Below, one piece after another: positions 23,129 to 27,996 of a stretch of 50,570 nt of DNA. Position numbers and translations under genes: made by a program. How positions within the stretch are numbered: position 1 is the first letter of the stretch; every line of letters starts with the position of its first letter. The stretch spans positions 1-50,570 of the forward strand of contig JAPLDA010000094.1 in NCBI GenBank assembly GCA_026391945.1, given 5' to 3'. The notes beneath the pieces were generated by a model. That model worked only from the letters and a program-made list of their open reading frames with translations, had not been told where the DNA came from and made no database searches. The DNA is from Bacteroidota bacterium. Its GTDB lineage: Bacteria; Bacteroidota; Bacteroidia; AKYH767-A; 2013-40CM-41-45.

Positions 23129-23569
23129 TTAAAGATTCTTCTTCATCCTGAAGTGCCTGATCACTCCGAATAGCATATAGGAGTCACTGATTACAAAGTA
23201 TCCGTGTTTCTCATAAAAGTGAATTGCATTTTCCCGTGCATCGAGGATGAGGTAGTCGAGTTTTTTTTCATTCGCCTTCTGTTCGATGTACCGGATGATT
23301 TCAGTTCCCAATCCTTTTCCCTGGAGATCTGTTCGTACAGCCATCGAGCGGATTTGTCCTTCCCGGTTGTTGTAGAGTTGCAATCGACCTGTTGCAACAC
23401 CTTCTCCATTTTCATCCAGCATCAGCATATGAATGGATATTTTCTCCCACTCATCCCGGGTGGATGTAACCGGCTGATTCCATGGCTTACGTAAAATCTC
23501 ATAACGGAGCTGATAATATTTTTCGAGTTCTTCTTCTGAGGAAGGTTCAATGATACGATAGGATTTCAT
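23129..23569 (-). CDS. GNAT family N-acetyltransferase
   Basis: The product is 146 residues from the ATG at 23569, which lies one base after the stop of the cytochrome/monooxygenase gene. Acetyl-CoA-dependent transferase fold: YQLRYEILRKPWNQP near 18-32, GVATGRLQLY, IRSMAVRTDLQGKGLGTEIIRYIEQKA with the pyrophosphate loop Q-G-K-G-L-G, and the C-terminal LDARENAIHFYEKHGYF. It is close to the ElaA-like or YjcF-like small-molecule acetyltransferases. The acceptor is unknown. Its place as third gene of the redoxin operon may be functional or only transcriptional. Confidence 0.88.
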   Translation of the reverse strand: MKSYRIIEPSSEEELEKYYQLRYEILRKPWNQPVTSTRDEWEKISIHMLMLDENGEGVATGRLQLYNNREGQIRSMAVRTDLQGKGLGTEIIRYIEQKANEKKLDYLILDARENAIHFYEKHGYFVISDSYMLFGVIRHFRMKKNL

Positions 23570-23570
23570 C

Positions 23571-24971
23571 TTACTGAATCGTTTTTTTGTACTTGGCCGA
23601 CTGTTGACTAACCTCCAGACTGATGTTTTCGTCTCCAACCTGGTACGGCATATAGGTAACAATAAACTGGAACATCTCATCCGTCGTCCGCATGCTTCCT
23701 TCCCGCTCCGAAATTATCTGCGGCGGATGAAACGGGTTCAACGGGTTGTTTACCGTATTGTCATACACTCCTTCCACATGAATGATTGTTCGTTTCGGAA
23801 GCTTCAGGATTTTTTTAAAGGTGTAAAAATACTGCCACCTGAAATCCCATTGGTTGATTCGTATGAGGTGAATCGTATCTCCATCCGGCTTTATGGCATA
23901 AGCTAAAAATGATTTTCCTAACAAATGCATGTGAGGATTAATGGTGAGAATCGATAAGTCTTCCGGGACGACGTATTGAGTTCTGAAAGTCTGAATGGTA
24001 TTCGGTTTAATGATGAGCGGAGGTTCTGTTTTAGAAATTCCTGAAGTACCAAGAATGAATTCTCCAGTCGGGCGAAGGGGAGGAGCAGCACTGAAAAAAA
24101 TATTGAAGGATGTATGGTCAGTGGTATCCACCGGCGAAGGTCCGTAATGAATGTTGTCGAGCAGGAGTATTCCGTTTTTCTTAACACAGTAACCTCCGAT
24201 TCCTTCCGGGTAAAAAGTGGTTTCTGCACCGGGGAGAAAATTGGTCACCGAAGGTGTAAGCAGCGGATACGTTCCATCGTCATTCTGCAAATCCAGTTTT
24301 TGAAAAGCCCGGAGTTTGTCATACACTTCGGTATCCACAAACTTTTCTCCTTTTGATAAATCGGTTTTTGCTCCTTCCTTGTATTGAACAAGATGTGCAT
24401 TGATGTGATGTACTACTTTGGTATTGCCCGGAACAATTTCAATCGCACGAATGAAGGTATCCTGTTTCAACTCATAAGGAATTTTCATCATCACAAAGTT
24501 GTCTTTGTTATTTCCTTTGATCAGGTAAGGATGATCCATGTTCAGTATCAAACCAGGTTTGCCGAATGTACTGTGATCCGGAAACTCCGGAATGGAAGGA
24601 AGTTTTGAAAAATCACCTTCGGGACAATCTTCATCTACCCATTGCCTGATCAGTTGAATTTCATCTTCCGATAAATATTTTTCATCCCTGAAATGCGAGT
24701 AGGTCGGATCGGCCGGCCAGGGAGGCATCGCCTTCGCTTCCACGGCAAGAGCAATTGTTTTGGCATGTCTCTTTACATCTGCATACGTGATCAGATTGAA
24801 AGGAGCGGCTGACCTTGGGCGATGACAAGGCGTGCAACTTTTATAAATTACCGGGGCGATGTGTTCGGAAAAAGTGGGATGAATCATTTCCGATCTGTTG
24901 CGATTTTTACATGATGGCAAAAAAAACTCACAGAAGATCATGCAGAGAATAAGAACGATGGCTGGTTTCAT
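23571..24971 (-). CDS. Cytochrome c / type II copper monooxygenase-like lipoprotein
   Basis: The product is 466 residues from the ATG at 24971, two bases after the redoxin stop. A signal peptide ends in a lipobox-like FLPSC (Cys21). A heme c site CTPCH (46-50) has a possible distal Met82 in AMPPWPADP. The rest resembles peptidylglycine/dopamine monooxygenases. The first copper site would be His188-His189 (KVVHHINAH) and His275 (DNIHYG). The second would be His347 and His349 (NPHMHLLGK) and Met433 (DEMFQF). All six copper ligands are thus present. Such enzymes hydroxylate C-H bonds with electrons from a reductant; here the heme may deliver them. Periplasmic or membrane-tethered. The substrate is unknown. 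Confidence 0.8.
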   Translation of the reverse strand: MKPAIVLILCMIFCEFFLPSCKNRNRSEMIHPTFSEHIAPVIYKSCTPCHRPRSAAPFNLITYADVKRHAKTIALAVEAKAMPPWPADPTYSHFRDEKYLSEDEIQLIRQWVDEDCPEGDFSKLPSIPEFPDHSTFGKPGLILNMDHPYLIKGNNKDNFVMMKIPYELKQDTFIRAIEIVPGNTKVVHHINAHLVQYKEGAKTDLSKGEKFVDTEVYDKLRAFQKLDLQNDDGTYPLLTPSVTNFLPGAETTFYPEGIGGYCVKKNGILLLDNIHYGPSPVDTTDHTSFNIFFSAAPPLRPTGEFILGTSGISKTEPPLIIKPNTIQTFRTQYVVPEDLSILTINPHMHLLGKSFLAYAIKPDGDTIHLIRINQWDFRWQYFYTFKKILKLPKRTIIHVEGVYDNTVNNPLNPFHPPQIISEREGSMRTTDEMFQFIVTYMPYQVGDENISLEVSQQSAKYKKTIQ

Positions 24972-24973
24972 GA

Positions 24974-25546
24974 TCATTCGATAATACAACCAATCGCTTT
25001 TGTTTCTGGAACCTTAATGGGCTGGTGATGCACGATTGCATTCAGCGCATCCTGAAATTCATGCGTGTTGACGGAGATTTTCTTTTTCCCGATGCCGTAC
25101 ATCCAGTCGTCAATTCTTCCGCGGTAAAGTATTTTTCCATGGTTGTCAACAACAAAAACTTCAGGAGAAACTTTTGCACCGAGACTTTTAACGAGTTTCT
25201 TTTCGGGATCGGTCATCAGCAAAAAACGAATGTGGTAACGGCTTTGAAATTCATTCATCTCTTCGGAAGTATTGTAATGCCCGGGAAACACACCGTAAAA
25301 TTGAATGCCGGAAGGTTTGAACTGATCACAGAGTTGATTTAACGTAAGCGAATAACTCTGGCACGACGGACAGTCGGGGAGAAGGAACACAAAAACGGAA
25401 GCCGTATTCTTTTTGATTTCATTCAACGAAAATATTTTCTGATCAGGCGTTGTCAACTGAATGGATGAATAATTTTTCTCAAAAGCATTTTGTGCTGAAA
25501 CCATTTCAACACAAATAAAAAAAAGGATAGCAATAATCTTGTTCAT
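24974..25546 (-). CDS. Exported redoxin (thioredoxin-like)
   Basis: The product is 190 residues from the ATG at 25546. The signal peptide is MNKIIAILFFICVEMVSAQ. It has an AhpC/TSA-TlpA fold with the active site LPDCPSCQS (Cys59, Cys62), followed by VSPEVFVVDNHGKILYRGRIDD. The C-terminal stretch TKAIGCIIE recalls the segment (T-x-A-x-G-C-x-I) that joins redoxin to cytochrome and copper monooxygenase domains in longer multidomain proteins. Here the chain stops and the cytochrome/monooxygenase starts two bases later. It may reduce or mature the heme or copper site of its partner; that is inference. It is the first gene of a three-gene operon with a strong promoter. Confidence 0.85.
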   Translation of the reverse strand: MNKIIAILFFICVEMVSAQNAFEKNYSSIQLTTPDQKIFSLNEIKKNTASVFVFLLPDCPSCQSYSLTLNQLCDQFKPSGIQFYGVFPGHYNTSEEMNEFQSRYHIRFLLMTDPEKKLVKSLGAKVSPEVFVVDNHGKILYRGRIDDWMYGIGKKKISVNTHEFQDALNAIVHHQPIKVPETKAIGCIIE

Positions 25547-25551
25547 TATTT

Positions 25552-25581
25552 CAAACATACATCATTCATTGTTCAAAACAA
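25552..25581 (-). promoter_or_regulatory. Promoter of the redoxin operon, near-leaderless
   Basis: On the minus strand: TTG (25581-25579), a 19-base spacer, TATGTTTG (25559-25552). Both elements match the consensus. The expected transcript start falls within a base or two of the ATG at 25546, so the mRNA would have little or no leader. Confidence 0.65.
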
Positions 25582-25632
25582 AATGAATTGCAACGCTGAT
25601 GTTCTTTCAACATTAGAATTTTGTTTGATGAT

Positions 25633-25704
25633 TTTTACGTCCATGACTTTTACGTCCATGACTTTTACGCCCATGACTTTTACGCCCATGACTTCAGTCA
25701 TGGG
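25633..25704. repeat. Four tandem 15-bp repeats ending in a palindrome
   Basis: Four units of TTTTACG(T/C)CCATGAC start at 25633, 25648, 25663 and 25678; the first two have T and the last two have C at the variable base. The last unit runs into the perfect palindrome CCCATGAC-TTCA-GTCATGGG (25685-25704). It lies between the redoxin promoter and the 3' end of the SBBP gene. No spacers, so not CRISPR. Confidence 0.8.
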
Positions 25705-25742: not shown

Positions 25743-27791
25743 TCAAGTCCGCTTCTGGAAAAACAAACCTGTCATCAAAACAATTCCTGCGAATAAAATC
25801 ATAGCCCATGTTCCAAGGGCAGGAATCGGATTCACGACATCATCCTGCAGTTCCATCAGGGCAGCTCCTTTCGAAGTTGGCTGCCATGAATTTCCACTGT
25901 CGGTGCTTAGTTCCATGAACACATCGAAGAAACTCGATATGCGATAGATTCCGCCTCCGGCATTGGTGATGCGCGCCAAACCGGTAGAGAAGAGCGTAGG
26001 ACTTTCACGCAGCAGGACTCCCGATGGGAAACTACCGCCGGAAAGATCCAGCTGCAGCATTTCAGTTTCGTAAAAGGCCGACGATCCGGAAGATGAAACG
26101 AAGGTCATCTTCATCCGTGCCGTGGCTGTGCAGGAAACCGGAACAGGTGAACCGGAATTTGATAACATAGCTGTAAAGTCACCGGTGAACGTAACGATGG
26201 ATGAACCGGAAGCGGGCGGAGGTGCTGATCCGGAAAAGTTTTTCAGGACGCAATTACTCAGGCTGATGGAGCCGGCATCATACAACCCGATACTGTAATA
26301 TTTTTTTGGAGGCCAAGAAGGCGAGGAGGTGATGATTGGTGGAAGGTCGGGAACATTGGTAATGACTTCCGGCCGTGGCACCGATGCAGAAAATTTTACC
26401 AGGCTGGCATCCCACATCCCGCCGCCGAATGTATTCTGAAATCCGCCCGATGCAATGCCTGTCGTGCTTTTCACGGTTCCCGCCATGTACAGATCACCAA
26501 ATGCATTCACGGTGATTCGCGCTTCTTCTTCATGCAGTTGTCCGTAATAAGTGGCACAGGTTCGCAAACCATTGGATGTAAAAGCAGCAAGGAAATGATT
26601 CTCCGTTCCGATCAGGTTGTTCTGAAAGCCGCCGGGAGTGGCAATGCAATTTCCGGCATTCGGACTGTAAACATCACCGACGAGGAAAACATTTCCCCAG
26701 GCATCGGTAGCCACGTCATTTCCTTCTTCCGCATTTGCTCCACCGTAATAAGTTCCCCACAAACGATTTCCTGATGCATCAAATTTCACGAGATACGAAT
26801 CACTCCAGCCACCAAACGTATTCTGAAAACCTCCGGAAGCAATTCCTGAAGTGCTGTTGGTGATTCCGGCAAGATATACACAGCCGCCGGGGCCGGTGGC
26901 AATACCGAAACCATATTCCAAATCAGAGCCTCCGTAATATGTTGCCCATAGCCGGTTTCCAGACGGATCGAATTTGGCGATGAAAGCATCCTGGTTTCCG
27001 CCGAAGGAATTCTGAAATCCGCCGGCAGAAGCAATGGCAGAAGTACTCATGGTGTATCCGCCGATAAAAACATTTCCGGCTGTATCGGTAGCCACATCGT
27101 TGGACAGGTCCTGGTCGGTTCCGCCGTAGTACGTTCCCCACAACCTGTTGCCGCTGCCGTTAAACTTTACAAGAAAGGCATCGGCCAATCCGCCATTCGT
27201 GGTTTGGTATGATCCGGCAGAGGAAATATCTGTCGTGCTGATGGTGTAACCCGTCATGTACACATTGCCTGTTGCGTCAGTAGCGAGATCCACGCCCTGG
27301 TCGAAATCAGCTCCGCCATAATACGTTCCCCAGATTCGGTTGCCGTTGGAATCAAACTTAACAAGAAATGCATCGGCTACGCCATTCAGGCTGGGCTGAA
27401 AAGAACCGGCTGTAGCAATGCCGCTTGTACTGAATGTATATCCTGCGAGGTAAACATTTCCGGCAGCATCGGTTTTTACCCCGTAACCATAATCAGCATC
27501 AGTGCCTCCGTAATACGTTGCCCAGAGCCGCACACCGGCGCCGTTGAACTTAACAAGATACGCATCTGTTGATCCACCGAAGACCGGCTGGTATGAACCT
27601 GCAGTTGAGATATTCGAAGTGCTGTATGTCCAGCCAGCTACATATACATTGCCGGCAGCATCGGTGGTGACGCTGTTACCAAATTCGCTGTCGCTGCCAC
27701 CGTAATAGGTAGCCCACATCCTGTAGTTTTGCGCCCGTCCCGTGTTTGCAACGCCGGACAGTAGTGCCAGTACCAGTAATATTTTTCTCAT
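25743..27791 (-). CDS. Exported SBBP-repeat protein with IPTL-like C-terminus
   Basis: The product is 682 residues from the ATG at 27791, with signal peptide KILLVLALLSGVANTGRAQ. Residues about 25-480 are seven or so copies of a 65-residue unit, (R)LWATYYGG.D...G..V.TDA.GNVY.AG.T.ST, the SBBP beta-propeller repeat. A second beta-rich domain follows. The C-terminus is tripartite: PIPALGTWA, a hydrophobic helix MILFAGIVLMTGLFF, and a basic end QKRT. This is the layout of IPTL/PEP-CTERM sorting signals and not of a T9SS domain. The protein is probably surface-exposed or envelope-anchored. It has a promoter of its own. Binding partner unknown. Confidence 0.85.
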   Translation of the reverse strand: MRKILLVLALLSGVANTGRAQNYRMWATYYGGSDSEFGNSVTTDAAGNVYVAGWTYSTSNISTAGSYQPVFGGSTDAYLVKFNGAGVRLWATYYGGTDADYGYGVKTDAAGNVYLAGYTFSTSGIATAGSFQPSLNGVADAFLVKFDSNGNRIWGTYYGGADFDQGVDLATDATGNVYMTGYTISTTDISSAGSYQTTNGGLADAFLVKFNGSGNRLWGTYYGGTDQDLSNDVATDTAGNVFIGGYTMSTSAIASAGGFQNSFGGNQDAFIAKFDPSGNRLWATYYGGSDLEYGFGIATGPGGCVYLAGITNSTSGIASGGFQNTFGGWSDSYLVKFDASGNRLWGTYYGGANAEEGNDVATDAWGNVFLVGDVYSPNAGNCIATPGGFQNNLIGTENHFLAAFTSNGLRTCATYYGQLHEEEARITVNAFGDLYMAGTVKSTTGIASGGFQNTFGGGMWDASLVKFSASVPRPEVITNVPDLPPIITSSPSWPPKKYYSIGLYDAGSISLSNCVLKNFSGSAPPPASGSSIVTFTGDFTAMLSNSGSPVPVSCTATARMKMTFVSSSGSSAFYETEMLQLDLSGGSFPSGVLLRESPTLFSTGLARITNAGGGIYRISSFFDVFMELSTDSGNSWQPTSKGAALMELQDDVVNPIPALGTWAMILFAGIVLMTGLFFQKRT

Positions 27792-27828
27792 CGTTTGAAT
27801 GATTTGCAGGTTTGATTTCTTAGTGTTG

Positions 27829-27858
27829 TAAATATAACAATCATTTTCAATGATCCAA
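27829..27858 (-). promoter_or_regulatory. Candidate promoter of the SBBP gene
   Basis: On the minus strand: TTG (27858-27856), a 19-base spacer, TATATTTA (27836-27829), one mismatch to TAnnTTTG. The leader would be about 30 bases. Confidence 0.5.
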
Positions 27859-27996
27859 TATTTTTTTTCAAGATGGTCTAGAAAGCCTTTATTCATCATC
27901 CTTTCAAAGGCTGATGTAAAATATAATTTCAAAAAGAATGCGGTGTACAGGAACTCATAAATCTTCAATTCGAAATCCGAAATTTCAGAGAGCCCC

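Follow-up and report, generated by a model that had tools for sequence, protein, structure and literature searches.

What could a heme- and copper-binding protein do when it is encoded directly beside a thiol redoxin, and what would the redoxin contribute? The question is raised by three open reading frames lying end to end on the minus strand (25558 to 23129) of a 50,570-nucleotide stretch of DNA from a Bacteroidota bacterium (contig JAPLDA010000094.1), which is referred to here as the window. They encode a redoxin, a heme/copper protein and a GNAT acetyltransferase. On balance, we consider it probable that the second product is an exported, lipid-anchored, heme-fed copper monooxygenase of the PHM/DBH fold, and that the redoxin is a two-cysteine protein dedicated to it. 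The features of the locus are as follows; "wider set" denotes 128 aligned relatives of the copper protein.

24974–25558, minus strand: exported redoxin (P0001, 194 aa) with an AhpC-TSA/Redoxin domain; nearest solved structures 2ywi, 2cvb and 3u5r
25370–25372, minus strand: Cys63 of the redoxin (Cys-Pro), invariant (52/52, 36/36 and 93/93 by motif)
24986–24988, minus strand: C-terminal Cys191 of the redoxin in T-x-A-x-G-C-x-I, invariant; proposed partner of Cys63
23571–24977 (alternative start 24971), minus strand: predicted lipoprotein (P0002, 468 aa) with an N-terminal cytochrome c and a C-terminal PHM/DBH-type copper monooxygenase domain
24909–24911, minus strand: Cys23 of the lipobox (FLPSC), predicted lipidation site; 97% of close homologs, 107/128 in the wider set
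24822–24836, minus strand: heme c attachment motif C48-T-P-C-H52; C48, C51 and H52 invariant in the wider set
24726–24728, minus strand: Met84 of MPPW, which probably ligates the heme on the distal side; invariant in the wider set
24405–24410, minus strand: His190-His191, CuH ligands by analogy with PHM H107/H108; invariant in the wider set
24147–24149, minus strand: His277 (HYG), CuH ligand by analogy with PHM H172; invariant in the wider set
23925–23933, minus strand: His349-Met-His351, CuM ligands by analogy with PHM H242/H244; both His invariant in the wider set
23673–23675, minus strand: Met435 (DEM), CuM ligand by analogy with PHM M314; invariant in the wider set
23129–23569, minus strand: GNAT acetyltransferase (P0003, 146 aa) with a Pfam GNAT domain; cotranscribed, judging by its position

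An earlier note on this DNA described three tightly packed minus-strand genes with gaps of 2 bases and 1 base, and the coordinates of the reading frames agree with it. The 2-base gap between the redoxin and gene 2 applies when the latter starts at its second ATG (24971); a start at the first ATG (24977) gives an ATGA overlap with the redoxin stop codon. Genes 2 and 3 are separated by 1 base. The residue numbers of the earlier note are exactly 2 lower than those used here, because our numbering counts from the first ATG of gene 2. The redoxin start is probably better placed at ATG 25546, giving the signal peptide MNKIIAILFFICVEMVSAQ. The near-consensus promoter once proposed in front of the genes did not hold up, as scans for sigma-70 and for Bacteroidetes-type patterns both returned matches at chance level. 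The sole Bacteroidetes-type match at the locus, TTTG-N19-TATGTTTG at 25582–25552, extends across the redoxin's first ATG, and across the window the TTTG-N-TAnnTTTG-type pattern was observed 2 times against 2.03 expected. Upstream lies a gene on the same strand (25743–27968) for a secreted SBBP beta-propeller protein, with a weak IPTL-CTERM-like tail at its end (E 0.047); a 15-base tandem repeat at 25628–25694, comprising 4.5 copies of ATGACTTTTACGCCC with 96% matches, is located between this gene and the start of the redoxin.

The case for a copper monooxygenase is built on the ligands and on the fold of the second protein. The six copper ligands, the C48-x-x-C51-H52 motif and M84 are all invariant, both in 78/78 close homologs and in 128/128 members of the wider aligned set, and this conservation is therefore not a matter of chance. 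The predicted lipoprotein with a CTPCH heme site and six copper ligands that had been recognized earlier (H190, H191, H277, H349, H351 and M435 in the present numbering) is thus confirmed, including in the close homologs, where a loss of the ligands would have spoken against it. The correspondence of these residues to the CuH and CuM sites of PHM was assigned by order and motif rather than by superposition, and the CuM motif SDEMC was checked in the PHM sequence taken from the PDB. The CxxCH motif together with a candidate distal ligand is what is expected of a c-type cytochrome domain. Direct sequence searches of the PDB with the copper protein gave no match, and the fold was therefore tested by structure prediction and Foldseek. 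The best fold matches of the AlphaFold model (pLDDT 89.9, pTM 0.83) in the PDB were to PHM (3mll, E 2.4e-13) and to human DBH (4zel, E 1e-12), both with a probability of 1.00. The predicted fold thus contains a PHM/DBH-like double beta-sandwich copper core, the lack of which would have counted against the assignment, preceded by an N-terminal cytochrome c domain.

Profile searches, which the earlier note had suggested, gave a clear answer for the redoxin (PF00578, 2.2e-15; PF08534, 6.5e-15) and a borderline one for its partner. Pfam Cu2_monoox_C (PF03712) recognizes the window copper protein with an E of 3e-4 and 20.7 bits, just under the cut-off of 23, and reaches 23.4 bits when the protein is taken with its neighbours in the frame; the same family is matched at E<=0.01 by all 49 of the 49 aligned members. 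PF01082 was not detected in the window protein and is matched weakly by one relative. Among the 49 members, cytochrome domain families were recognized as Cytochrome_CBB3 in 15 and as Haem_bd in 5. No relatives were detected in the plasmid and viral collections searched. It is also worth mentioning that one heme-copper subfamily (L088, L091, L097 and L101) carries T9SS C-terminal sorting domains (TIGR04183), consistent with surface display or secretion of these relatives in place of a lipid anchor.

This copper hydroxylase fold is familiar above all from animal enzymes that process hormones. With PHM (PF01082/PF03712; PDB 1phm and 3mll) the window protein has in common the predicted double beta-sandwich, the HH...H and HxH...M order of ligands and the HxHxxG and DEM motifs, whereas the N-terminal heme c domain and the predicted lipid anchor are found on the bacterial protein. 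The conserved disulfides of the animal enzymes are missing: apart from the lipobox and CxxCH there is no well-conserved Cys in the copper protein from which PHM-type bonds could be formed, Cys118 being present in 22/128. Such bonds are not needed for the chemistry, and their absence marks a distinct subfamily. With human DBH (PDB 4zel) the copper core fold is common. DBH has an N-terminal DOMON domain, in place of which the cytochrome c stands here. In PHM, R240 and Y318 bind the peptide carboxylate. The equivalent positions in the window protein are N347 and I439, with Arg at 347 in 0/128 and Tyr at 439 in 11/128 relatives, and peptide amidation is therefore unlikely; a peptide with a C-terminal glycine is an unlikely substrate on these grounds. 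Judging by sequence, the copper protein appears to represent a distinct PHM/DBH subfamily in which the fold and the ligands are kept, a heme domain is added and the substrate residues of PHM are absent.

The redoxin is recognizable by its family and its cysteines. Cys63-Pro64 and Gly190-Cys191 are invariant among the redoxins neighbouring copper genes. The second Cys of CPxC is less constant, giving way to Ser in 10/33 upstream redoxins and to Val in 14/14 fused ones. Since Cys63 and Cys191 never vary and the second Cys of CPxC does, the working redox pair is probably Cys63 and the C-terminal Cys191. Accordingly, of the exported CPSC redoxin described before, the redoxin is retained and CPSC as its active site is not. 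The T-x-A-x-G-C-x-I end had been read as a segment joining the redoxin to the rest of a longer chain; a remnant or linker of a fusion is ruled out, as 13/13 stand-alone redoxins without a copper gene nearby, and PDB 2ywi and 2cvb as well, likewise finish in GCxI; it is the C-terminus of the redoxin family itself. The PRX-like proteins of the thioredoxin fold (PDB 2ywi, 2cvb/2ywo and 3u5r) thus share with the window redoxin the fold and the C-terminal Gly-Cys-x-Ile, but they are general stand-alone proteins with CxxC-P, whereas the window redoxin belongs to a clade of its own, one linked to the copper gene. ResA, CcmG and TlpA are likewise exported and of the redoxin fold (a structural match to ResA was found), and they assist the assembly of heme c or copper enzymes; the window redoxin differs from them in its invariant pair, which is Cys63 and the C-terminal Cys instead of CxxC, and in being tied to one enzyme.

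How close this tie is was seen in a survey of Bacteroidota genomes. The copper gene, with its PHM-like fold, all copper ligands and fused cytochrome c, is present in 150/295 sampled Bacteroidia genomes, in contrast to a metalloproteome review in which PHM and DBM are listed only under eukaryotes (PMC7435645) and to a structural paper which assigns PHM to eukaryotes (PMC8812541). A search of the open literature turned up no study of bacterial heme-PHM proteins. The clade of the window-type redoxin was detected in 68 of the 150 genomes that carry the copper gene and was absent from all 145 others (Fisher 6e-25, a test that ignores relatedness, with a redoxin profile built from copper-gene neighbours). 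With this profile the known members score >=150 bits and other redoxins <=93, and the threshold was set at 120 bits. The positive genomes are spread over 31 family codes, and the redoxin is usually the next gene to the copper gene on the same strand. Among the best 30 window-type redoxins 27 adjoin the copper gene and 3 lie elsewhere in genomes that have it; those located away from the copper gene lend the association some independent support. These three (L188, L197 and L198) include two that are found beside a putative dxr. The thiol partner envisaged in the earlier note is therefore borne out, and the partnership of the redoxin with the copper protein is real.

The arrangement of the partners varies. 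Of 149 copper loci, a count that includes duplicates, 45 have the redoxin upstream and 32 have it downstream; it is fused at 15 loci, divergent at 1 and distant at 4, and none was found at 52, meaning none within the fetched flanks, several of which are short. About one third of the loci lack a nearby redoxin, which may thus be dispensable in cis or even altogether. Once duplicates are removed, these arrangements turn up in various parts of the copper-protein tree, and the partners, whether upstream, downstream or fused, come from at least two separate redoxin branches.

The longer chains in which redoxin, cytochrome and copper monooxygenase are joined do exist, as had been stated. Such fusions were found in 14/301 genomes, all of one family code (L102, L115–L124 and L126–L128). 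In FastTree phylogenies, whose support values are local only, the fused copper proteins fall into a single clade of 14 rows (support 100), and the fused redoxin domains are separated from the window type by a supported branch (96). The survey of fused and split forms asked for in the earlier note thus identified the split form as the widespread one, and the view that the window pair is the fused protein in split form had to be abandoned, the fused form being one clade with a redoxin of a different branch. The fused proteins share with the split pair the three modules, the heme motif, the copper ligands, and the Cys-Pro and C-terminal GCx[IV] of the redoxin; they differ in being a single chain of the order redoxin-heme-copper, with a redoxin of another branch carrying CPxV. 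A natural fused protein was modelled as one unit (pTM 0.83), and its fold matches PHM as well as 2cvb, 2ywi and ResA. In L125 (G445) the fused gene seems broken: the redoxin part could be matched only by reading through several stop codons, and what is left is a frame of 438 residues.

The third gene of the locus is of narrower distribution. The ACETYLTRANSFERASE GNAT acetyltransferase accompanies the copper gene at no other loci than L003, L156 and L172. The first two belong to the four-member copper-protein clade of the window, in which L002 has no acetyltransferase; L172 comes from a genome of the same family and, as a near-duplicate of L003, shares one entry with it in the tree. The acetyltransferase gene follows the other two closely, as described earlier, but its linkage is not conserved beyond these three, and as a neighbour kept by the closest relatives only, specific to the lineage, it was set aside as a functional part of the system.

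Sequence and structure prediction together show the fold, a complete set of ligands for CuH and for CuM, the heme c motif and its conserved Met, the predicted lipid anchor of the copper protein and the exclusive genomic tie of one redoxin clade to it; that the copper protein is fed by its heme and acts as a hydroxylase is what we infer from them. The heme domain would accept electrons from a periplasmic donor and pass them singly to the copper sites, in the role that ascorbate or cytochrome b561 plays for the animal enzymes, and the copper enzyme would hydroxylate a C-H bond of its substrate outside the cytoplasm, in the cell envelope or beyond. The redoxin would act through Cys63 and the C-terminal Cys191. 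If a disulfide in the partner is what it acts on, this would be the CxxCH prior to heme attachment, as the lack of any other well-conserved Cys makes this motif the only conserved dithiol target there. The redoxin may thus keep CxxCH reduced for the attachment of heme, as ResA and CcmG do; alternatively, it may handle the copper destined for the His/Met sites, in the manner of TlpA/Sco systems. The role we tentatively favour for the redoxin, at somewhat short of an even chance, is to assemble and maintain the hydroxylase, ahead of electron donation and of the control of peroxide.

Our preference for assembly over electron donation is based on analogy. As a direct reductant, the redoxin would receive reducing equivalents from a periplasmic thiol relay at its Cys63/Cys191 pair and hand them on to the heme and the copper centres in every catalytic cycle, the three domains making up an electron-transfer chain, for which speak the clade with the redoxin, heme and copper domains covalently fused in that order, the high confidence with which the fused chain was modelled as a single unit, and the close co-occurrence of the redoxin clade with the copper gene. 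This role is the next most likely after assembly; against it, transfer from a dithiol to a single-electron heme is chemically unusual and many copper loci have no redoxin nearby. It is unlikely that the redoxin is a two-Cys peroxidase with Cys63 as the peroxidatic and Cys191 as the resolving residue, removing or metering peroxide from uncoupled turnover or working where peroxide is a co-substrate. The protein does belong to the AhpC-TSA/Redoxin family, and a C-terminal Cys was proposed to be resolving in a peroxiredoxin-like domain that is related to it and was modelled with 2ywi as a template (PMC3091736). However, no curated peroxiredoxin model reaches its cut-off on the redoxin, the best being far below it, the context of Cys63 is CP[SCV] in place of the peroxidatic motif, and there is no Arg among the invariant or nearly invariant positions.

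Two further readings bear on the system as a whole. The PHM-like domain might be a structural descendant, or one that stores or senses copper, with the heme as a redox sensor and no oxygenase activity; the double jelly-roll fold is, after all, common to non-oxygenases such as PNGase F (Foldseek; PMC8812541). The strict invariance of all six ligands of both copper sites over a large divergence makes this quite improbable. Least credible, and very improbable in our judgement, is that the three genes are mere neighbours, i.e., a heme-copper enzyme, a general-purpose redoxin and an acetyltransferase that are functionally unrelated. The confinement of the acetyltransferase to the closest relatives and the many copper loci without a redoxin would fit it, but not the absence of the redoxin clade from all genomes lacking the copper gene, nor the linkage of upstream, downstream and fused arrangements, and of separate redoxin branches, to that gene.

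A PHM core fed by heme would permit the activation of oxygen by copper to be studied without ascorbate, and the dedicated redoxin would be a partner in maturation or reduction that can be tested. It is plausible, though put forward slightly more tentatively than the assembly role, that about half of the sampled Bacteroidia genomes contain a large bacterial PHM/DBH branch that is self-sufficient for electrons by means of its heme c and depends on a redoxin of the Cys-Pro/C-terminal-Cys type for the assembly or reduction of its cofactors. If so, these genomes would encode a copper hydroxylase system of three modules in the cell envelope, with a new target for chemistry.

No clue to the substrate was found in the gene neighbourhoods, which include dipeptidyl peptidase-like and YihY-like genes in one clade. 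In this Chitinophagales-like clade (L022, L028, L034, L059, L063 and others) the copper gene follows the dipeptidyl peptidase-like and YihY-like (membrane protein) genes in an order that is conserved, and a redoxin of another type is located downstream of it; the identities of these neighbours were assigned by eye.
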